DNA of 64,000 nucleotides, taken from Alphaproteobacteria bacterium (GTDB lineage Bacteria > Pseudomonadota > Alphaproteobacteria > Rhizobiales > Rhizobiaceae). Below, one piece after another: positions 34,602-47,407 of this stretch. The position numbers and the translations under genes were made by a program. The number at the start of each line of letters is the position of its first letter. Position 1 is the first letter of the stretch. The notes under the pieces were generated by a model. It did not search any database, was not told the DNA's origin, and saw only the letters and a list, made by a program, of their open reading frames with translations. The stretch spans positions 868,001-932,000 of the forward strand of contig JANSYK010000003.1 of assembly GCA_024742485.1 (NCBI GenBank), read 5' to 3'.

Positions 34602-36191
34602 TCAGTCTCCCCATTTGCCGATCAGGATACCCGAGGCGTCTTCCTTGCCACGCATGGCTTGGACATCCGTATCGGTCATGGTGACACGGTTCTTTCGTTC
34701 GACAAGACGGTCGAGAAGCCGGGCGTGCATGTCAACCCGAACCTGTTCATGTGCCGTGTCCCGACCAAGATCATTGAACTCCAGCGGGTCGTTCTTCAGA
34801 TCGAAGAGCTGCGCCGGAAAACCCTTGAAGTGAATATATTTCCACCGGTCTGTTCGCAGCATGTATCCGCGGGCGTCTGACACGCCGACATTGAGCATTT
34901 CACGTGCGGCGTAAAAGCCATAATCGATTTCGGAAAACACCGCATCGCGCCAATCGTCAACGGCGATGCCGTGAAGAAACCGTTGAAGCGATCTGCCCTC
35001 CAGCCGATGATCAGCCGAAGGCGCGCCTGTCGCTTCCAGAAACGTCGGGACAAGGTCAATCGCCTCGACCAGCGCATTGCAGGCGCTGCCCCGTGTTCCA
35101 TCGGCCTCGGAGCGGGGATCGACGATGATCAATGGCACGCGGACGGAGACCTCGTGGAACAGTTCCTTTTCACCCAGCCAGTGATCGCCCATATAGTCAC
35201 CATGATCAGAGGTGAACACGATCATGGTCTCCTTGTCCTTGCCGGTTTCTTCAAGCCAGGCGAACAGGCGTCCCAAATGATCGTCGATCTGTTTGATCAA
35301 GCCCATATAGGCCGGCAGGATGGTCTCCCTCGCACCCTGATTGGAGAAGGTTTCACTCACTTCCATTCCCATGAATGCCGCGTAGACCGGGTGCGGATCA
35401 TGCCGCTCGGTCTCATCGCGGATAACCGGAAGAAACGAGTCCGGTCCATATGATTCGTGATACGGCCGGGGTGCCATGTAAGGCCAATGTGGCTTGATGT
35501 AGCTCAGATGACATAGCCAGGGCGCGTCGCCCGTTTCATCGATGAACTCCTTCGCGCGCATGGTCATATAGGCGGTTTCGGAATGTTCCTCGTTAACCCG
35601 TGCTGGAAGGTTTGAATTTTTCAGATGCCATCCCGAAAGCAAAGAGCCATCGGGACCATCGGCGGAATTAGCAAAATCATTCCAGGGGTTTTCACTCTCA
35701 TAGCCCTTTTCCCGCAGCCATTCATTATACGCCAGCTTGCCACCCTTTTGGCGAAGAAGGGGTGTCGGATGCAATCCGTCATCACGTTCATAAGGATCAA
35801 AACCAGGCTGGCCGACCCGGATGCCGATTTCGGTGCTGTCGTTGAGGCCGAGCCGCGCCATGCCTTCCCGGTCCGGCACCATGTGCGTTTTGCCCACAAC
35901 GGCCGTCTTGATACCCAGAGGGCGCAGATAGTCGCCAAGCGTCAGTTCACCAATGGGAAGCGGAACACGATTCCAGGTCGATCCATGACTGAACACCGTC
36001 CGTCCCGTGTAGAAGGAGGCTCGGGATGGCCCACAAACGGGGGACTGCACATAGGCCTGGTCAAACCGCACGCCCTTGCTTGCCAACCGGTCGATGTTCG
36101 GCGTTTTGAGATGCGGGTGACCATAGCAGCTCAGATAATCCCACCGAAGCTGATCGGCCATGATGAACAGGATGTTCTTTACGTGTGCCAC
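34602..36191 (-). CDS. cytosolic sulfatase / phosphonate monoester hydrolase-like enzyme
   Basis: 529-residue alkaline-phosphatase superfamily hydrolase. The formylglycine signature CGPSRASFYTG begins at Cys53, so the cysteine needs conversion by a formylglycine-generating enzyme encoded elsewhere. Metal sites: MADQLRWD at the N-terminus, SYIKPHWPY, and VFTSDHGDYMGDHWLGEKELFHE. No signal peptide is present, so it acts inside the cell. In layout it resembles both arylsulfatases and phosphonate monoester hydrolases. The three-base gap from the TRAP permease gene indicates its substrate is imported as an intact sulfate (or phosphonate) ester. Confidence 0.9.
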   Translation of the reverse strand: MAHVKNILFIMADQLRWDYLSCYGHPHLKTPNIDRLASKGVRFDQAYVQSPVCGPSRASFYTGRTVFSHGSTWNRVPLPIGELTLGDYLRPLGIKTAVVGKTHMVPDREGMARLGLNDSTEIGIRVGQPGFDPYERDDGLHPTPLLRQKGGKLAYNEWLREKGYESENPWNDFANSADGPDGSLLSGWHLKNSNLPARVNEEHSETAYMTMRAKEFIDETGDAPWLCHLSYIKPHWPYMAPRPYHESYGPDSFLPVIRDETERHDPHPVYAAFMGMEVSETFSNQGARETILPAYMGLIKQIDDHLGRLFAWLEETGKDKETMIVFTSDHGDYMGDHWLGEKELFHEVSVRVPLIIVDPRSEADGTRGSACNALVEAIDLVPTFLEATGAPSADHRLEGRSLQRFLHGIAVDDWRDAVFSEIDYGFYAAREMLNVGVSDARGYMLRTDRWKYIHFKGFPAQLFDLKNDPLEFNDLGRDTAHEQVRVDMHARLLDRLVERKNRVTMTDTDVQAMRGKEDASGILIGKWGD

Positions 36192-36194
36192 GGT

Positions 36195-37490
36195 CTACCT
36201 CATCAGGTTTGGCAGGAAGGTCGCGATTGGCGGGAAGGCCAGCACCAGGATGAGGCCGACAACAAGCGCAACGATATAGGGCATTACACCCCTGAAAATC
36301 TTCACCAGAGGCACATCTGCCAGAACCGATTTCACGACAAAGACATTCATGCCGATCGGAGGCGTGATCAACCCGATTTCCGAGACCAGCACGACGAGGA
36401 TGCCGAACCAGATCATGTCGACGCCATTGATTGACAGCGCCGGCAGGAAGACAGGCACCAGCAAGACCAGGATCCCGATCGCTTCAAAAACCATGCCCAT
36501 GACAATGGCAATGGCGCAGACAAACAGAACCAATCCCATCGGTGAAAGTGCCCATTCATCAACCAGGTCCAAGAGGTCGTAGGGCAAGCCACTCAGATTG
36601 ATGAACTGGGAGAACACGATCGCCCCCAGCAGCACCATGAAGATTGTGGCGGTCGTTGTGGCGGCGTCAGCCAGACAGTCACGCCACTCGGAAAGACTGC
36701 GCATATGCCCTCTGGCAATGGCGATGATCGCAGCGCCGAATGACCCAATTCCCGCAGCCTCGGTTGCCGTGAAGGCGCCCGAATAAATGCCACCCAGGAC
36801 AACCAAGAAGAGTCCGAGAACCGGCAGTGTGCCTCGGATTGCTGCCTTACGGCGCTGCGGGTCGAGCGGCGGCGAAGCCGGTGCTGCGCTCGGGTCGACC
36901 CGCACAACAATCCCCACCACAATGAGAAACAGTGCAACGAGAAGCAATCCGGGCAATATGCCGGCAATGAAAAGAAGGCCAATGTCCTGTTCGGCGATGA
37001 TGCCGTAGATGACCAAGGGGACCGAGGGCGGGATCATGATACCCAATGTCCCGCCCGCGGCAATGGTGCCGGATGTCAACCGGTTGGAGTAATTGTAGTT
37101 GCGCATGGGCGGCATCGCCACCTTGGCCATTGTGGCAGCCGTTGCGAGGGTCGAACCGCAGACAGCCGAAAAGCCGCCTGCCGCCAGAACTGTGGCCAGG
37201 GCCAGCCCGCCGCGAAATCGACCGAGGGCTGAATAGGCGGCGTCATACAGGTCCTGACTGACCCGCGCATGAACGATCAACACACCCATCAAAATAAAGA
37301 GTGGAATGACTGACAGGTTGTAGTTCATCGAGTCGTGAAACACCTGCTGCCCCACCATGGCCAGCGACGCCTCCCAGCCCCGCTGCATGGCAAAGCCGAA
37401 AAATCCGACGACAAGCGTCGCAAATCCGACTCTGAATCCGATGAAACACATCGTCAGAAGAACAGTAAAACCGATCAGAGCGGAGGCCAT
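36195..37490 (-). CDS. dctM: TRAP transporter large permease (DctM)
   Basis: 431-residue membrane subunit, about twelve transmembrane segments, typical length. Family text includes MNYNLSVIPLFILMGVLIVHARVSQDLYDAAYSALGRFRGGLALATVLAAGGFSAVCGST and IMIPPSVPLVIYGIIAEQDIGLLFIAGILPG in outline, and LITPPIGMNVFVVKSVL near the C-terminus. It drives Na+-coupled uptake together with DctQ and DctP. Its start shares one base with the stop of dctQ, and its stop is three bases before the sulfatase. Confidence 0.95.
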   Translation of the reverse strand: MASALIGFTVLLTMCFIGFRVGFATLVVGFFGFAMQRGWEASLAMVGQQVFHDSMNYNLSVIPLFILMGVLIVHARVSQDLYDAAYSALGRFRGGLALATVLAAGGFSAVCGSTLATAATMAKVAMPPMRNYNYSNRLTSGTIAAGGTLGIMIPPSVPLVIYGIIAEQDIGLLFIAGILPGLLLVALFLIVVGIVVRVDPSAAPASPPLDPQRRKAAIRGTLPVLGLFLVVLGGIYSGAFTATEAAGIGSFGAAIIAIARGHMRSLSEWRDCLADAATTTATIFMVLLGAIVFSQFINLSGLPYDLLDLVDEWALSPMGLVLFVCAIAIVMGMVFEAIGILVLLVPVFLPALSINGVDMIWFGILVVLVSEIGLITPPIGMNVFVVKSVLADVPLVKIFRGVMPYIVALVVGLILVLAFPPIATFLPNLMR

Positions 37491-37987
37491 CAGGTGTCTT
37501 CCAGGTGCGGATCGTCGTCACCGCTTCGGCCGATGAACAGGCCGAGTATCTGGCTGACCACACTCAAGGCCGCGAGAGTTGCCACCGTGCCGATGATCCA
37601 TGCCAGTGGCCACTCAAGAACAACGGTGACGGAGTTCACATGAGCCGCTTCTCTTGCCTGTTCGAACAGAACATAGACAATCAGGCACATGGCGCAGATG
37701 GAAAATCCCTGTATGACGAAGTCGTAGATCCGAGGCGATATGGCTCGGATACGATGGTCCAGCAACTCCACAACGATATGCCGATCCTTGGCATTGGCGA
37801 TGCCCAAACCCAGAAAAATTGTGAAGGCCAACAGGGTGCTGATCATTTCAGCGGCACCGAACACCGGTGCCTTCAGGACATATCTACCGATGACGTCGAC
37901 AAATGTCAGGAACATCATGGCAGCAAGCACAATGCTGGAAAGAATTTCCAGGACTTGAACGATGCGCTTCAGGATACTCGCGGCCAT
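37490..37987 (-). CDS. dctQ: TRAP transporter small permease (DctQ)
   Basis: 165 residues with four transmembrane helices (IVLAAMMFLTFVDVIGRYVL, GAAEMISTLLAFTIFLGLGIA, DFVIQGFSICAMCLIVYVLF, LAWIIGTVATLAALSVVSQI). The motif DVIGRY near residue 32 is typical of DctQ. The tail is acidic and cytosolic. Lies 22 bases after the binding-protein stop and overlaps dctM by one base, giving operon order dctP-dctQ-dctM-sulfatase. Confidence 0.92.
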   Translation of the reverse strand: MAASILKRIVQVLEILSSIVLAAMMFLTFVDVIGRYVLKAPVFGAAEMISTLLAFTIFLGLGIANAKDRHIVVELLDHRIRAISPRIYDFVIQGFSICAMCLIVYVLFEQAREAAHVNSVTVVLEWPLAWIIGTVATLAALSVVSQILGLFIGRSGDDDPHLEDT

Positions 37988-38009
37988 GATGTTCTATCCG
38001 CCGTTGTCG

Positions 38010-39029
38010 TTACTCGGCGAGTTGCGCCTTGTAGAACGCAAGCGCAGCCGTGCCGTCGATCCCGGCTTCGCCTGCCGCTTTCAGCCAACCTTCAGTCACA
38101 AACGCGGACGACTCGACGAGTGCGGCCTCGAAGCCGGGGTCGGCATCGACAACCTCCAGTCCGGCTTCACCGTAACTGGCTTCGGCTCCCGCCGCGGCTT
38201 TGTTCCAGCGTGCACCGAATGCGGCTCCGAGGACATCGGCCGACACCGACATGATGGCTTCCTGGTCCTCAGGCGAAATCTCGGCCCATGTGTCCTTGTT
38301 CACAAAGACGGAGAATGACGTGGAATATACGGCCTTGCTGAACTTGGTCGTCGATTTGGTGTACGGCATCAACTGAAATGTCCGCAGAGCTTGCGGGTCA
38401 AGACCCAGATGTCCGTCGACCACTCCGCGCGAAATGATCTCGTTCGACTTTACGGCAGGTGTCGAAACGACACCGGCGCCGATTTTCTTGGAAATCGCGG
38501 CGAGTGGCCCCGGCAAGGCCCAGATCTTGCGGCCGGCCAATTCGTCAATCGAATTGATCGGTGTGTCGGTCTGACTGAACAACTCACCGGGCGAAATGAC
38601 GAATTGCGACAACAGGTGAACCGTGTCGAATTCGTCCGGAAAATACTCCCGGTTTGTGGCCCACAATGCGCGACTCATTTTTTCGGCATCATGGATGCCG
38701 GTAAATGGCTGCATCGCAACAAGCGGTCCCTTGACGCGGTTTTGAATAAGTCCATTGAACTGCACGGCCACGTCCGCAAGCCCCTTTTCCACGGAGGCCA
38801 ACTGCTCCGGAGGCGGTGCTACCGATTTGGGCGGAATGATCCCGGTGACGCGGCCGTCTGTCACCCGTTCGATCTCGTCCAGCCAGCCGGGAAGGACTTC
38901 GCTACAGGCAAAATGCTTCGCCGGCCAGAAGCAATTGACAACCAGCCGCGTCTTCGCGTGCGCAGCCACGGGGATGAGTGCGAGAGTCACTGCAACGGCA
39001 GTGCCCATGGCAATTCTCTTCGTTTTCAT
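38010..39029 (-). CDS. dctP: TRAP transporter substrate-binding protein (DctP)
   Basis: 339-residue periplasmic receptor. The signal peptide KTKRIAMGTAVAVTLALIPVAAHA ends near residue 25. The family's carboxylate-binding arginine probably lies in the LAGRKIWALPGPLAAISKKIG segment, and FVNKDTWAEISPEDQEAIMSVS is the characteristic late motif. The ligand cannot be read from sequence; the coupled sulfatase suggests a sulfated organic acid. TTGGAGGAAACC precedes the ATG at 39029. Confidence 0.92.
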   Translation of the reverse strand: MKTKRIAMGTAVAVTLALIPVAAHAKTRLVVNCFWPAKHFACSEVLPGWLDEIERVTDGRVTGIIPPKSVAPPPEQLASVEKGLADVAVQFNGLIQNRVKGPLVAMQPFTGIHDAEKMSRALWATNREYFPDEFDTVHLLSQFVISPGELFSQTDTPINSIDELAGRKIWALPGPLAAISKKIGAGVVSTPAVKSNEIISRGVVDGHLGLDPQALRTFQLMPYTKSTTKFSKAVYSTSFSVFVNKDTWAEISPEDQEAIMSVSADVLGAAFGARWNKAAAGAEASYGEAGLEVVDADPGFEAALVESSAFVTEGWLKAAGEAGIDGTAALAFYKAQLAE

Positions 39030-39069
39030 GGTTTCCTCCAAATGAGAGCAGGACATTTCTCCTCCGTCC

Positions 39070-41702: not shown

Positions 41703-43241
41703 TCAATACTCCTGATTGAGGGCATCCTCGGCCGGAATTTCCCGTTCGCGACGCGCGATATAGTCCCTCAAGGCCTCGTCCTTTGCCTCGTCGAGCTTGG
41801 GCTCCTCATATTCCGATAGAAGTTTTTTGGCCATCTCGAGCGACCGTTGGGTGATTTCGACGCTGCCCTCGGCCTGCCACTGCTCGACCGAATTGTTGTC
41901 GAAGAGTTTTGGCATGAAATAGGCCCGTTCAAAATTCGCACGGGTGTGTGCATGGCCCAGATAGTGGCCACCAGGTCCGACATCCCTGACCGCCGCAAGT
42001 CCTTCGTCGAAGTCATCCCAATGAATGCCTTCCGCCATGCGGTAGCCCATTGCGCATTGTTCGGCATCGACGATAAATTTTGCGACGGAGCAATGCATGC
42101 CCGCTTCGTTCCAGCCCGCCGAATGCCAGATATAGTTGGCGCCGGCGTGAAGAACGGCAGACAGGGTCGCGGCGCTTTCATAACCGGCCTGTGCATCGAA
42201 GGTCTTCGCACCGCCGAGCGTATTCGATGTTCTCCAGGGGATATCATAAAAGCGGGCCATCTGGCCGATCATGAAATTCATCAGACTGATTTCCGGCGTG
42301 CCGGCCATCGGTGCACCCGATTGCATCGAAACAGTGGACAGGTAGTGTCCGTAAATGGCTGGAGCACCCTTGCGGATCACTTGTGTATAGGCGAGCGCCG
42401 ACAGCGCCTCGGCATTGAGCTGTGCAACGGTCGGCGCGACGGAGGCGGGTGTGTTGGCGCCGCCCAGTACAAAGGGTGAGCAAAGAACCGGCTGGTTGCG
42501 CCGGCAGAACGCCCGCATGGCACCGAGCATCGTCTCGTCCCAGACCAGTGGGGAATTGCCGTTGCAATTGCCAGTCGTTACAGGATGCGTCTCAAGAAAT
42601 TCCTCCCCAAACAGGATAGCGCACATATCCATGACATCTTCGGCATTTTTCGGGCTGGTGGTCATGCCCATGAAGGTCTTGTCGGAATACTTCATCGACG
42701 AATAGGTGATGCGCAGATGGCGATGGGCGACCACATGATCCATCGGTTCGACAATGTGGTGCGCCGACGAGTGGAGAGCAGGGGACATGTGGCTGAGCTT
42801 GTGAAACATCGCCAGGTCTTCGAGCGTCGGCAGTCTGCGCTTGTCTTCCAGATCGCGCAGATAGGGCGCGCCGGTCATGGGAACGAAGATGGAATTCGGC
42901 CCGCCAAGCGGCACATTCTTCTCCGGATTACGGGCGTGATAGGAAAAAGATGACGGAATGGTGCTGATCAATTCACGAACCAGGCCCCGATCGAGATGAA
43001 CACATTCACCCCGGACATCCGCGCCTGCTTTTTGCCAGTCGGCAAGAGCGATCGGATCGCGGAAAACAACGCCGACATCCTCGAGAATATCCATTGAGGC
43101 GTTATCGATGCGCTGGACCTGGTCGGGGTCCATGGGTTCGCATAACGGCAGATTCCGCCGCAAGCCGGGAAGCATGTCAACCTTGGAAACGGTGCGTTCC
43201 GCCCGTCGCGCCGAACGTCCTCCTGCACGTCTATCGGCCAT
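41703..43241 (-). CDS. trimethylamine methyltransferase (MttB) family protein, non-pyrrolysine type
   Basis: 512-residue TIM-barrel corrinoid-dependent methyltransferase-like protein. Recognisable stretches include DVGVVFRDPIALADWQKAGADV, RNPEKNVPLGGPNSIFVPMTGAPYLRDLE, TTGNCNGNSPLVWDETMLGAMRAF and WHSAGWNEAGMHCSVAKFIVDAEQ. There is no in-frame amber codon, so it is the MtgB-like class without pyrrolysine. Known members demethylate quaternary amines such as glycine betaine, transferring methyl to a corrinoid protein; none is encoded nearby. Start 43241 follows GGGGAGC. First gene of the leftward mttB-SDR-SDR operon, divergent from marR. Confidence 0.85.
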   Translation of the reverse strand: MADRRAGGRSARRAERTVSKVDMLPGLRRNLPLCEPMDPDQVQRIDNASMDILEDVGVVFRDPIALADWQKAGADVRGECVHLDRGLVRELISTIPSSFSYHARNPEKNVPLGGPNSIFVPMTGAPYLRDLEDKRRLPTLEDLAMFHKLSHMSPALHSSAHHIVEPMDHVVAHRHLRITYSSMKYSDKTFMGMTTSPKNAEDVMDMCAILFGEEFLETHPVTTGNCNGNSPLVWDETMLGAMRAFCRRNQPVLCSPFVLGGANTPASVAPTVAQLNAEALSALAYTQVIRKGAPAIYGHYLSTVSMQSGAPMAGTPEISLMNFMIGQMARFYDIPWRTSNTLGGAKTFDAQAGYESAATLSAVLHAGANYIWHSAGWNEAGMHCSVAKFIVDAEQCAMGYRMAEGIHWDDFDEGLAAVRDVGPGGHYLGHAHTRANFERAYFMPKLFDNNSVEQWQAEGSVEITQRSLEMAKKLLSEYEEPKLDEAKDEALRDYIARREREIPAEDALNQEY

Positions 43242-43366
43242 GATCAGCTCCCCTTTTGTGCCTAATTCAGTGTTAGCTGCACCGGCCTCGGTGACGACCT
43301 CCTTAGCGACATCCACGGGCAAAAAACGACCAGCTCGTACAGGCGCTCGGGGCTGTGATCACCTAA

Positions 43367-43399
43367 ATAGTTGACCATGTTAACTATCGACGATATGAT
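43367..43399 (+). promoter_or_regulatory. marR promoter with overlapping dyad operator
   Basis: TTGACC (43371-43376) and TATGAT (43394-43399) are exactly 17 bases apart, a near-consensus sigma-70 promoter. A 21-base dyad with arms ATAGTT (43367-43372) and AACTAT (43382-43387) covers the -35 and spacer, and a further half-site CTAACTAT lies at 43408-43415. This layout is typical of MarR autorepression. The same region is upstream of the leftward mttB operon. Confidence 0.65.
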
Positions 43400-43445: not shown

Positions 43446-43901
43446 ATGGCCCCGGTAATCGAATACAGTCTCCACAAGAGGCTCGGATACAAGGTTTCGA
43501 GGCTAGCGGGACTGATGGAAGCCCGGCTCGATGCAAAGATTGGCAAACTCGGCATAACCCGCATGATGTGGTGTGTCCTCAGCGGCGCAGGTCTGGAAGG
43601 CGTCAAGACCCCCTCGGAGCTTGCCCGCTATATCGGTATCGCGCGCCCGACCGTTTCACGTCTCCTGAGAGAGATGGAAAGCAAGGCGCTGATCCGCCGG
43701 CTCGGCGCCGAAGGCGACGGACGATGTATCGAAATCCAATTGACCGAGAAAGGAAGGTCGGTGCTGCAGAAGTGCCGCCCGCTCGTCGATGAACTGAACG
43801 AATATTTCGGTGCCAAGCTGACCGCGCACGATCTCGAAACCCTCCTGAAACATCTCGATATGCTCACCGATGGCGAGACGCGGGAACTGACGTCACTCTA
43901 G
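43446..43901 (+). CDS. MarR-family transcriptional regulator
   Basis: 151 residues. The winged helix includes KTPSELARYIGIARPTVSRLLREMESKALIRRLGAEGDGRCIEIQLTEKGRSVLQ, followed by dimerising helices. In-frame starts at 43371, 43377 and 43395 lie inside the promoter elements; the ATG at 43446 is downstream of the expected transcription start (about 43406), has GGGA five bases before it, and gives normal MarR length. Probably represses itself and the dehalogenase gene until a phenolic or aromatic ligand binds. The stop codon TAG is shared with the left boundary of the adjacent inverted-repeat element. Confidence 0.88.
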   Translation: MAPVIEYSLHKRLGYKVSRLAGLMEARLDAKIGKLGITRMMWCVLSGAGLEGVKTPSELARYIGIARPTVSRLLREMESKALIRRLGAEGDGRCIEIQLTEKGRSVLQKCRPLVDELNEYFGAKLTAHDLETLLKHLDMLTDGETRELTSL

Positions 43902-44166
43902 GCTGTGGTGAGCATTTAACCTACGTGCCGGTTTGTCCGGATTTGTTCAGGATCGGTTTAGGAGGAGGAAGGACATGCTGTTGCATATTCAACGCCGAGT
44001 GGGCCGGTCATGGGCAAATCCGGTCAAATCCCTTCGGGACGCGGTAGACTTCGCCCCTGGACTTCGTTGCGAAACGCTTGAAGTGGCCAACACTACTGCG
44101 CCTTTCGCGCCTTGCCATGAACGAAGTGTGCCACGCCGGCGCATGGGTTAAATGCTCACCACAGCC
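43901..44166. mobile_element. 266-bp MITE-like element with perfect terminal inverted repeats, TA duplication in CTAG
   Basis: The left end reads GGCTGTGGTGAGCATTTAAC (43901-43920) and the right end (44147-44166) is its perfect reverse complement. Each end is flanked by TA (43899-43900 and 44167-44168) within an outer C and G, so removal restores CTAG. IS630/Tc1-mariner elements duplicate TA, and IS630 is known to favour CTAG. No transposase gene fits inside, making this a non-autonomous MITE. A nested imperfect inverted repeat (43932-43945 with 44015-44028, 13 of 14) is also present. It lies between marR and the dehalogenase gene. Confidence 0.75.
43975..44151 (+). CDS. possible 58-residue peptide inside the inverted-repeat element
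   Basis: An ATG at 43975 follows the strong site GGAGGAGGAAGGA and reads 58 codons to TAA inside the right terminal repeat. The peptide is Arg-rich with two cysteines (RCETLEV, APCHERSVPRRRMG) and shows no known domain. It could be a leader peptide, an element-encoded peptide or chance. Confidence 0.25.
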   Translation: MLLHIQRRVGRSWANPVKSLRDAVDFAPGLRCETLEVANTTAPFAPCHERSVPRRRMG

Positions 44167-44179
44167 TAGGACACCTGCC

Positions 44180-47100
44180 ATGAAAATGTTTTCCTATAAG
44201 AACCGACCGGTACATATGGGGCCGTTTCCGCTGGAGACGCTGAGCCGGTCAAAGGACCCGGTCGATCTGCAGGCGATCGAGCCCATGACGCCGCTCACCT
44301 GCGACCATCAGCCAGCCGAATCTCTGGCCCACGCCATGGCTCGTTTTCTCGGGATGATGGATACGGTTCGCGACGGCAAAATTGTTCATGGCGAAGCGGA
44401 GATTCCACAGAACCCGGCGCGCCGCGCCGAACATCTGAAAGCCGCCGGATACTACTTCGACGCGTCCATGGTAGGCATTGCGAAGCTGGAAAAGGACCAC
44501 TTCCTGGCCTCTCCGTTCCGCAACCCAATGATCGATGACATCAAGGAAGAATTGGAACGCGGCCAGCCAAAGAGTTTTGCGTCGGGTATCGATGCCATCT
44601 ACGCCGACGTTCTTGAATCGGCGCGCATCAAGCTCGGCCCCGTGGACCATCACACACACGCAATTGTCTTTCTCGTCGAATATGCAAGGGACCCGAAGTC
44701 GGATGAGCCGGGGACCGATTGGTTTCACAACACACAGGCCGACCGGGCGGCATTACTGACATCCAATGTCTCCGCAGTGCTTGCCAGTTACATTCGCATG
44801 CTGGGACACGAGGCGCGATCCCACACGGCCACCACGTCCGACGTCGATCTGAAACGGCTGGGCGTTTCTGCCGGGCTGTGCGGCGTTGAAGAAGTCGACG
44901 GCGCGCAAACACTCGTCAATCCCTATGTCGGCTCGCGTTTTGGTCTGGCGGCGATCACGACAACTCTGGAACTCGAACCGGATCTGCCGCTTGGACCGAA
45001 TGCCGGCCGTTCCGGCTGGCAGTCGCATGGACCATCCTGGTGGCTCGGCAAGGGAACGGCGCGCAGGGCGGCAACCGCGACACCCTATGTTGATCGCGAG
45101 TTTCACATGGGCGCCCATCCATTCGAGACCATCAAGCGCCGCGACACGCCGACAACCATGATCGATGAGGAGCGCGTCCCGCGTTTTCCCAAACGGTCGG
45201 ACTTTTTCGCCCGCGCACTGTTCGGCGATATGGGAAAGAACGTCCAGGAAGCAGCCAAGGGCGGCATGTATGTCATGAAGAGCCCCATTGGTGCCTGCGC
45301 CCGCCGGGCGCTGGGCGCGCTGCTGCTGCTGCAATTCGGGGAAGCGCGCGGCCCGGTATCGCCGAGCACAGCGGATCCGGCCCGAAACGCAAAAAACCTG
45401 AAGGCGGCATCCTATTATCTGTCCGCCGATGCCGTCGGGCTCAGCCGGGTTCCCGAATGGGCCTATTATTCCCATGATGCCGGTGGCAATCCCATGGAAG
45501 CCTATCACACCAATGGCGTGTCTCTGCTTTTGGATCAGGGGCACGAAACCATGGAGGGCGCGAGTGGCGACGACTGGATATCCGTCGCCCAATCGATGCG
45601 CGCCTATCTGCGGTTTTCCCTGCTTGGCGGGGTCATAGGCGAGCAGATCCGGCGCCTGGGATATTCTGCGCGCGTGCATTCGGTGGTCGATGGCGATGTT
45701 CTGCAGCCACCATTGCTGCTGCTGTCGGGTCTGGGCGAAGTCAGCCGCATCGGCGAAGTCATCCTCAATCCGTTCCTCGGTCCGCGTTTGAAGTCGGGTG
45801 TCGTCACCACATCGATGCCGATGGAGCACGACAGGCCCATCGATTTCGGCCTTCAGAACTTTTGCAACAATTGCAACAAATGCGCGCGTGAATGCCCATC
45901 GGGAGCCATAACCGCCGGCCCCAAATTGATGTATAATGGCTATGAAATCTGGAAATCCGACGCCGAGAAATGTGCCCGCTACCGACTGACCAACACCGCC
46001 GGCGGCATGTGCGGGCGCTGCATGAAGACATGCCCCTGGAACCTTGAGGGCCTGTTTACGGACGAGGCGTTCCGCTGGATGGCGATCAATGCGCCGGCGT
46101 CGGCAAAGACGCTGGCGCGGCTGGATGACACGCTCGGGCGGGGCCAGATCAATCCGGTCAAAGCCTGGTGGTGGGACATCGAACTGGACACTGCCCAGGG
46201 ACGATATGTGCAGGCCGAGGCAACAAACCGGCGCGGCCTGTCGCGGGAGTTGGACCTCAAATATGAGGATCAGACGCTGGCGGTCTATCCGGCCGATGTG
46301 ATGCCACCACCGCTGCCGTTCATTCATCCCTTGAACCGGGAAGAGGGGATTGAGCGTTATCGGGCCATGCTGACGCCGGAGGAATATCGCGAGAGAATCG
46401 CAGCAGGCGATGTTGTCGATCTTGCGCCGCAGCCCAAACCGCTGGAGGGGCCGCCGCCTGTCTTTCCGGTGATCGTATCAAAACGCGAGGATCTTGCCGA
46501 TGATGTTGTCCGGTTCGAGTTGACCGCAGAAGATGGCAAGACCCTGCCGCCATTCGAGGCGGGGGCGCATATCGATGTAGTGATCGCACCGGAATATCAG
46601 CGCCAATACTCATTGGCGGGCGACCCTGCCGACCAGAGCAAATATGTGCTGGGTGTCCTGAAGGAAGCCGAGGGGCGTGGTGGATCGCTGCTGATGTATC
46701 GTATCTTCAAGGAAGGGCGCCGGATTTTCGTTTCCGAACCGAGAAACCATTTTCCAGTCGATGAAGAGGCATCATTCAGTGTTTTGATGGCGGGCGGCAT
46801 CGGGGTCACACCTCTGATGACAATGGCGCATCGTCTGCACGCACTGAAAAAGGATTTCGTTTTCCACTACAGCGCTAAATCCGAGGAACAATGCGGCTTT
46901 GCGGAGGAACTGAAGGCCGTGCCGTGGTCCGACAAGGTGTTTTTTCACTACTCGGCGGCGGGCACGCGGGCCAATTTGAGTGAATTGATCCCAACCCATC
47001 GCAAGGGATTCAAACTCTACACCTGTGGCAGCGACCGTTACATGGATGGGGTTTTCGACATGGCTCAGCAGAAGGAATGGCCGGAAGAGAGCCTCTCCAA

Positions 47101-47407
47101 GGAGTATTTTTCGGTGCCAGAGCCCCCGGATTTCGTCAACTACCCGTTCAGTCTTGAACTTGAGAAATCGGGTCGGACGATCCAAGTCTCCGCCGAGGAG
47201 AGTGCGACCGATGCGCTGGAGGCCGTCGGATTGCCGGTCATCGTCAAATGCACCGACGGGCTGTGCGGTGTGTGTGCAGCCAGTTACAGTTCCGGCGAAG
47301 TCGAACACCGAGACTATGTGCTTTCGGCGAAGGAACGGGAATCCAAAATTATCCTGTGTTGCTCGCGGGCCAGTGAACCGGACGGCGTTATCAAGATCGA
47401 TCTGTGA
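44180..47407 (+). CDS. self-sufficient reductive dehalogenase: RdhA with fused phthalate-dioxygenase-reductase module (BhbA-type)
   Basis: 1075 residues, predicted cytosolic. Residues 1-330 and 340-560 are two related modules (VHMGPFPLETL against FHMGAHPFETI; VNPYVGSRFGLAAITTTLE against LNPFLGPRLKSGVVTTSM), as in the B12-binding fold of catabolic RdhA. Two [4Fe-4S] motifs follow: Cys562/565/568/572 and Cys598/611/614/618. From about 765 there is an FMN/NAD(P)H reductase (RQYS at 808-811, GGIGVTP 872-878, YTCGSDRYM) and a C-terminal [2Fe-2S] ferredoxin (Cys1024/1029/1032/1060). No Tat signal or membrane anchor gene, unlike respiratory RdhA. Known relatives (BhbA of Comamonas; NpRdhA of Nitratireductor, which lacks the fusion) remove ortho-halogens from hydroxybenzoates aerobically using cobalamin. 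Start 44180 has AGGA upstream. Confidence 0.92.
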   Translation: MKMFSYKNRPVHMGPFPLETLSRSKDPVDLQAIEPMTPLTCDHQPAESLAHAMARFLGMMDTVRDGKIVHGEAEIPQNPARRAEHLKAAGYYFDASMVGIAKLEKDHFLASPFRNPMIDDIKEELERGQPKSFASGIDAIYADVLESARIKLGPVDHHTHAIVFLVEYARDPKSDEPGTDWFHNTQADRAALLTSNVSAVLASYIRMLGHEARSHTATTSDVDLKRLGVSAGLCGVEEVDGAQTLVNPYVGSRFGLAAITTTLELEPDLPLGPNAGRSGWQSHGPSWWLGKGTARRAATATPYVDREFHMGAHPFETIKRRDTPTTMIDEERVPRFPKRSDFFARALFGDMGKNVQEAAKGGMYVMKSPIGACARRALGALLLLQFGEARGPVSPSTADPARNAKNLKAASYYLSADAVGLSRVPEWAYYSHDAGGNPMEAYHTNGVSLLLDQGHETMEGASGDDWISVAQSMRAYLRFSLLGGVIGEQIRRLGYSARVHSVVDGDVLQPPLLLLSGLGEVSRIGEVILNPFLGPRLKSGVVTTSMPMEHDRPIDFGLQNFCNNCNKCARECPSGAITAGPKLMYNGYEIWKSDAEKCARYRLTNTAGGMCGRCMKTCPWNLEGLFTDEAFRWMAINAPASAKTLARLDDTLGRGQINPVKAWWWDIELDTAQGRYVQAEATNRRGLSRELDLKYEDQTLAVYPADVMPPPLPFIHPLNREEGIERYRAMLTPEEYRERIAAGDVVDLAPQPKPLEGPPPVFPVIVSKREDLADDVVRFELTAEDGKTLPPFEAGAHIDVVIAPEYQRQYSLAGDPADQSKYVLGVLKEAEGRGGSLLMYRIFKEGRRIFVSEPRNHFPVDEEASFSVLMAGGIGVTPLMTMAHRLHALKKDFVFHYSAKSEEQCGFAEELKAVPWSDKVFFHYSAAGTRANLSELIPTHRKGFKLYTCGSDRYMDGVFDMAQQKEWPEESLSKEYFSVPEPPDFVNYPFSLELEKSGRTIQVSAEESATDALEAVGLPVIVKCTDGLCGVCAASYSSGEVEHRDYVLSAKERESKIILCCSRASEPDGVIKIDL

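Follow-up and report, generated by a model that had tools for sequence, protein, structure and literature searches.

A 64,000-nucleotide stretch from an alphaproteobacterium of the family Rhizobiaceae (contig JANSYK010000003.1, positions 868,001 to 932,000; hereafter the window) carries a gene, rdhA, whose product is most probably a cytosolic, self-sufficient catabolic reductive dehalogenase (RDase) of the bromo-/iodophenol type. We put the probability of this reading at about 0.86. The initial annotation, made from the letters alone, had already proposed a self-sufficient cytosolic reductive dehalogenase; the modules, the active-site residues and the phylogenetic tree support it, and the assignment to the BhbA-like class held in every sequence test made.

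Architecture of the predicted dehalogenase

The gene and its parts are placed as follows.

44180..47407, + strand: rdhA, predicted self-sufficient catabolic reductive dehalogenase, 1075 residues (translation, RDH model, NpRdhA match, alignment)
44180..45004, + strand: degenerate N-terminal RdhA module, residues 1-275 (alignment of N- and C-modules; Tyr replaced by A191, Lys by G255)
45095..46189, + strand: predicted catalytic RdhA module, about residues 306-670, carrying S472, Y476, K538 and R602
45863..46033, + strand: two [4Fe-4S] motifs, C562-C572 and C598-C618 (motif search, alignment)
46469..47389, + strand: phthalate-dioxygenase-reductase-like module, residues 764-1070 (match to structure 2pia over 766-1070)
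47249..47359, + strand: [2Fe-2S] ferredoxin motif, C1024, C1029, C1032 and C1060 (Pfam Fer2, 1.6e-7)

The reading frame is intact, with a single stop at its end, and its start at 44180 is consistent both with the homologue at the closest relative locus (L009) and with the start of NpRdhA (structure 4ras). Between the window gene and the L009 homologue, nonsynonymous divergence (dN) is 0.069 and synonymous divergence (dS) 1.124, giving a dN/dS of about 0.06 by the Nei-Gojobori method; selection has therefore preserved the protein.

The NCBIfam RDH model TIGR02486 scores the product at 186.1 bits, above its cut-off of 160.35. By phmmer, NpRdhA matches residues 1-107 and 157-741 (E 8.9e-169) and phthalate dioxygenase reductase (2pia) matches residues 766-1070 (E 3.6e-54). 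Between the two NpRdhA stretches, the 49 residues 108-156 face 7 in NpRdhA, which makes the window protein about 42 residues longer there; BhbA, the Ruegeria TM1040 protein and two other fusions likewise have residues there. The RdhA part is itself double: its N- and C-modules align with a score of 198, against 61 for the best of 200 shuffles.

For residue counts and for the tree we used 28 relatives drawn from 47 loci (L009-L055), among which the same gene sometimes appears under two locus numbers; L019 and 18 further loci were excluded from both because they were repeats or near-copies, or so that the set stayed small. All 30 aligned rows have the [4Fe-4S] cysteines (562, 565, 568, 572 and 598, 611, 614, 618), and the four [2Fe-2S] cysteines are invariant in both alignments that cover them (15 and 11 rows). 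No twin-arginine (Tat) motif is evident by eye at the N-terminus, where no signal-peptide program was used, and a coding-score scan of open reading frames of at least 80 residues beside rdhA found no RdhB anchor-like frame, a search with an RdhB model not being part of it. A respiratory RdhA was considered and rejected on these two grounds. The single 1075-residue frame, the cysteine positions, the fused FMN/NAD(P)H reductase with its [2Fe-2S] ferredoxin, and the want of a Tat signal and of an anchor gene had all been part of the initial annotation, and all were borne out within these limits.

Active site and proposed mechanism

The roles of the active-site residues are taken from work on NpRdhA (PMC7565698). 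Residues S472, M473, Y476, K538 and R602 of the window protein correspond to S422, M423, Y426, K488 and R552 of NpRdhA and are identical to them. The catalytic Tyr, Lys and Arg are kept in all 30 rows, and the counterparts of S422 and M423 are unchanged in the 29 fused rows compared. Loss of Tyr and Lys from both modules, which the initial annotation had named as fatal to its proposal, was not what the alignment gave: both stand in the catalytic module as Y476 and K538, and the loss is confined to the N-module. There, A191 and G255 fit the vestigial first module, without cobalamin binding, that PMC10463259 describes for the BhbA/JtRdhA class.

By analogy with NpRdhA and with JtRdhA of Jhaorihella thermophila, NAD(P)H would feed electrons into the C-terminal reductase module, whose flavin mononucleotide (FMN) and [2Fe-2S] cluster would relay them to both [4Fe-4S] clusters; from there they would reach cobalamin, bound base-off by the second RdhA module. 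The ortho-halogen of a phenol would bind the cobalt as a cobalt-halogen adduct, its oxygen being held by K538, R602 and S472; Y476 would supply the proton and halide would be released. Cofactors, electron path and a preference for bromo- and iodophenols are thus carried over from the two characterised proteins, as are NADPH as the likely donor and ortho-halogenated phenols as the likely substrates. Ortho-brominated and ortho-iodinated phenols are our first guess within that group, because JtRdhA takes bromo- and iodophenols, with the chloro analogues acting only as inhibitors (PMC10463259). A product such as 4-hydroxybenzoate could go onward through PobA and PcaGH, to judge from genome content.

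Phylogeny and distribution

From the catalytic core of 35 rows, with 276 of 429 columns used, we built a maximum-likelihood tree that joins the fused proteins, BhbA and NpRdhA in one 100/100 group, which excludes the partial PceA rows, QueG and two single-module RDase-like proteins. Within it, the window protein lies in a 14-row clade (100/99) with rows from Rhizobiaceae, Phyllobacteriaceae, Pararhodobacter, Rubrivivax and other betaproteobacteria. A separate 11-row clade (100/97) is of Roseobacter type and includes Ruegeria TM1040; BhbA, together with the Nitratireductor OM-1 protein, also stands apart. On this sequence comparison, the window protein is a member of a supported clade distinct from that of BhbA, so that the phylogeny against BhbA proposed with the initial annotation places the two in the same group and in different clades. 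Since the tree has long outgroup branches, incomplete PceA rows and weak support for the position of NpRdhA among the fusions (89/35), the fusion may, on this evidence, have arisen once or more than once.

Full-length rdhA occurs in all eight genomes of the genus, the source genome counted: five have the window type (76-100% identity) and the other three only a type with 55-56% identity. One genus-mate (G004) has two full-length self-sufficient copies (L023 and L030), whose identity to the window protein is 89% and 53%. In the family, 31 of 297 sampled genomes have a match spanning at least residues 45-1075, the source genome and four genus-mates among them; two candidates were scored per genome, so this count is possibly low. 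Given the genus and family figures, the enzyme is not rare. Among 72,556 plasmid records, eight contain a region that spans 80% or more of the query. No assay of a protein from the window's clade was recognised in the literature, surveyed by listings whose coverage leaves out most subscription papers, and no publication pairing a reductive dehalogenase with Hoeflea was found there.

A MarR-type regulator and a repeat element upstream

Three features precede rdhA.

43363..43392, + strand: operator-like site upstream of marR, TTGAC-N3-GTTAA core with AT-rich flanks (exact pattern search)
43446..43901, + strand: marR, MarR-family regulator, 151 residues (Pfam MarR_2, 6.7e-10; homologue beside rdhA in relatives)
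43898..44169, no strand assigned: repeat element of 272 bp separating marR from rdhA (perfect terminal inverted repeats of 21 bp, CTAG at either end)

The mechanical open reading frame of marR begins at 43371; the start at 43446 is taken from the L009 alignment. SlyA and HpaR models both stay under their cut-offs on the protein. A MarR gene is the commonest partner of rdhA in the 19 relative loci compared: it adjoins rdhA in 11, ten times just upstream on the same strand and once (L055) divergently. Counting the window and these ten, the operator-like pattern is exact in 8 of the 11 loci with a same-strand MarR gene; L019 comes close when inspected by eye, and the pattern is absent from L011 and L053. 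It has no further occurrence on either strand of 296,145 bases from the same sources, a count to be read with the fact that the pattern was derived after nine of the sequences had been viewed. A phenolic ligand of MarR might relieve repression of marR-rdhA transcription.

The two genes lie 278 bases apart in the window because the repeat element sits between them; at L009 the element is missing from this site and the gap is 11 bases. Five full-length copies occur in the genome, the other four at 87-88%, along with several partial ones. At three of the five, a long open frame ends on the TAG within the CTAG of one edge; these frames are marR, pobA (396 open codons) and one of 212 codons. At the remaining two copies the open frames are 114 and 118 codons long. 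Since the TAG stop is preserved in CTAG at those three copies, the element may insert at gene ends without breaking genes. The copy at pobA (L083, G000:C44:167666-167938) abuts the 3' end of a possible next gene for 4-hydroxybenzoate, probably by coincidence.

Genomic context and physiological role

Downstream, the next gene follows rdhA after 94 bases. Upstream, at 41703-43322 on the − strand, lies a gene for an MttB-family methyltransferase (PF06253, E 2.7e-217), which stays under the cut-off of the trimethylamine model; it is transcribed away from marR-rdhA, and the operator-like site occupies part of the gap. Functional links to either side were considered and are not supported: MttB lies beside rdhA in one of the 19 relative loci, the closest one (L009), and the downstream ATP-grasp, alpha-E and transglutaminase genes follow rdhA in three (L009, L010 and L012), all close relatives, so that shared synteny accounts for them. 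No Rfam RNA, such as a cobalamin riboswitch, reaches the gathering threshold in the window. Farther off, at 34602-39056 (− strand), stand a sulfatase gene, a full tripartite ATP-independent periplasmic (TRAP) transporter (DctM, DctQ, DctP) and a LysR regulator; together they might import a sulfated organic compound and remove its sulfate.

Elsewhere the genome encodes CobN (TIGR02257, 1733.7 bits, cut-off 822.05), which makes corrinoid synthesis plausible, PobA (682 bits, cut-off 538.7), the beta subunit of protocatechuate 3,4-dioxygenase (PcaH; 352.3 bits, cut-off 296.4), five LigB-family matches above cut-off and three COX1-family oxidases. With CobN, PobA, PcaH and COX1 in the genome, an aerobic cell that makes corrinoid and channels 4-hydroxybenzoate via protocatechuate is plausible. 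PobA, PcaH and CobN lie on contigs other than that of rdhA, and for that reason we infer, and do not observe, their connection with it. Two parts of the initial annotation bear on this. A probable aerobe agrees with the three oxidases, which would also allow a facultative life; coupling to catabolism is supported only indirectly, by PobA and PcaH, both encoded on other contigs, and the scanned window genes flanking rdhA included none recognised as a ring-cleavage gene.

A true dehalogenase might instead serve detoxification, or the scavenging of natural bromo- and iodophenols, and not growth on halogenated carbon. This alternative concerns the role only, is compatible with the enzyme assignment, and in our estimate falls somewhat short of even odds. 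The recurring MarR neighbour speaks for it, as a MarR repressor would suit a response to a toxic phenol, and so do the TRAP permease relatives near rdhA in 3 of the 19 loci. In the loci compared from the window's clade, moreover, no ring-cleavage gene was recognised near rdhA, the gene lists having been judged partly by eye. Growth is favoured by PobA and PcaH in the genome and by JtRdhA, which allows E. coli W to grow on 3-bromo-4-hydroxyphenylacetate (PMC10463259). Both the substrate and the physiological role given here are thus read from homology and gene content.

Weighing the assignment

Several observations weigh against a bromo-/iodophenol dehalogenase working as proposed. No halogenated-aromatic breakdown gene was found beside rdhA, unlike in plasmid pBHB and in Nitratireductor OM-1, which have ring-cleavage genes near theirs (OM-1 also pobA). 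The MarR neighbour was not found in 8 of the 19 loci (L015-L018, L022, L051, L052 and L054), and the repeat element that separates rdhA from marR could have altered rdhA expression. The pocket departs from that of NpRdhA at K307 (to A), F310 (to Y), P311 (to V), A419 (to V) and N452 (to V), so the substrate could differ. We list with these points an AlphaFold model built on 15 aligned sequences, which supports neither side: its mean predicted local distance difference test score (pLDDT) is 60.7 and its predicted template modelling score 0.48, 403 of 1075 residues fall below 50 pLDDT, many of them within the catalytic core, and nothing was concluded from it.

A further alternative is a shift to another substrate, for instance to chlorinated or non-halogenated aromatics, with the catalytic residues kept. 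The hydrophobic side of the pocket is unlike that of NpRdhA and less conserved than the catalytic residues. At the position of NpRdhA F290, the window protein (F342) and BhbA have phenylalanine, against methionine or leucine in the Roseobacter-type clade, and ten core positions are clade-specific, six of them at 595-609 around R602. Yet Y, K and R are unchanged in every aligned row, as are the S422 and M423 counterparts in the fused ones, and JtRdhA was inactive on the chlorinated compounds tried (PMC10463259); we regard such a shift as unlikely. As the catalytic residues are kept and the hydrophobic pocket varies, the phenol-binding chemistry should be that of NpRdhA, and the exact substrate fit may differ. 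It is likewise improbable, in our view, that the 14-row clade forms a functionally separate branch of self-sufficient dehalogenases, in which the alphaproteobacterial members are under MarR-operator control and the pocket accepts as substrates compounds, such as chlorophenols, that JtRdhA binds only as inhibitors.

That the protein is a relative of epoxyqueuosine reductase and no dehalogenase, a grouping that the initial annotation had said would undo it, can be practically dismissed: TIGR00276 does match residues 489-622, but at 32.3 bits, far below its 200-bit cut-off, while the genome has a separate 387-residue QueG (431.2 bits), which the tree keeps apart from the fused group, albeit with a very long branch leading to it.

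Comparison with known systems

The self-sufficient dehalogenase reading is best measured against proteins that have been characterised. BhbA of Comamonas sp. 7D-2 (plasmid pBHB, L051) matches the window protein over its full length at 50.5% identity, which upholds the earlier description of BhbA as a fusion of this kind. The two have the same catalytic residues and the phenylalanine at the position of NpRdhA F290; they differ in clade and at the pocket positions corresponding to NpRdhA 307, 310, 419 and 452. The setting differs as well: on pBHB, bhbA belongs to a cluster that encodes a tricarboxylate-transporter-type binding protein and, for ring cleavage, protocatechuate 4,5-dioxygenase. NpRdhA of Nitratireductor pacificus (4ras, 6zxu) is 44.5% identical over 573 aligned residues (its residues 112-694). 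It has the same catalytic residues and the double module but lacks the fused reductase and the roughly 42 additional residues at 108-156.

Among alphaproteobacterial RDases without a Tat signal is also Ros_A3X954 of Roseobacter sp. MED193, a tested debrominase described in PMC13101508; unlike the window protein it has a single RdhA domain, and it is a different gene. The same paper gives 72.2% identity between Ros_A3X954 and A0A2T7UTL8, an RDase of Pararhodobacter aggregans that other workers have tested; for that reason we take A0A2T7UTL8 to be of the single-module type and not the fused gene of L014. The source genome has two single-module RDase-like proteins of its own. One, of 445 residues and without a reductase (L006:1012-2349, G000:C154:1489222-1490016; TIGR02486, 168.7 bits), has the cysteine motifs CDICTKCADACP and CAICMRVCP, exactly those given for Ros_A3X954 in PMC13101508. 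The other, of 465 residues (L005:1045-2442, G000:C44:128518-129372; 169.9 bits), has respiratory PceA as its nearest solved structures and no Tat motif evident by eye; read from the alignment, its Tyr is present and Arg replaces Lys.

A further parallel in design is JtRdhA, purified and assayed in 2023. According to PMC10463259 it is a one-protein fusion of RdhA and phthalate dioxygenase reductase, with a duplicated module, no Tat signal, two [4Fe-4S] motifs and the catalytic Tyr, Lys and Arg, NADPH-dependent and active under air. By that description the architecture is the same as that of the window protein. JtRdhA and related fusions are also said there to carry an insertion relative to NpRdhA, which may or may not be the one seen here as additional residues at 108-156.

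Altogether, on sequence grounds the architecture is that of BhbA and of the assayed JtRdhA: the class is already known, and the window protein, which adds a member, leaves the picture of it unchanged. Dehalogenases that tolerate oxygen and work as one protein are candidates of practical use for clearing brominated and iodinated phenols in the presence of air. The window copy marks a supported branch, frequent in its family, and its small marR-rdhA unit could be expressed for a direct comparison with JtRdhA.

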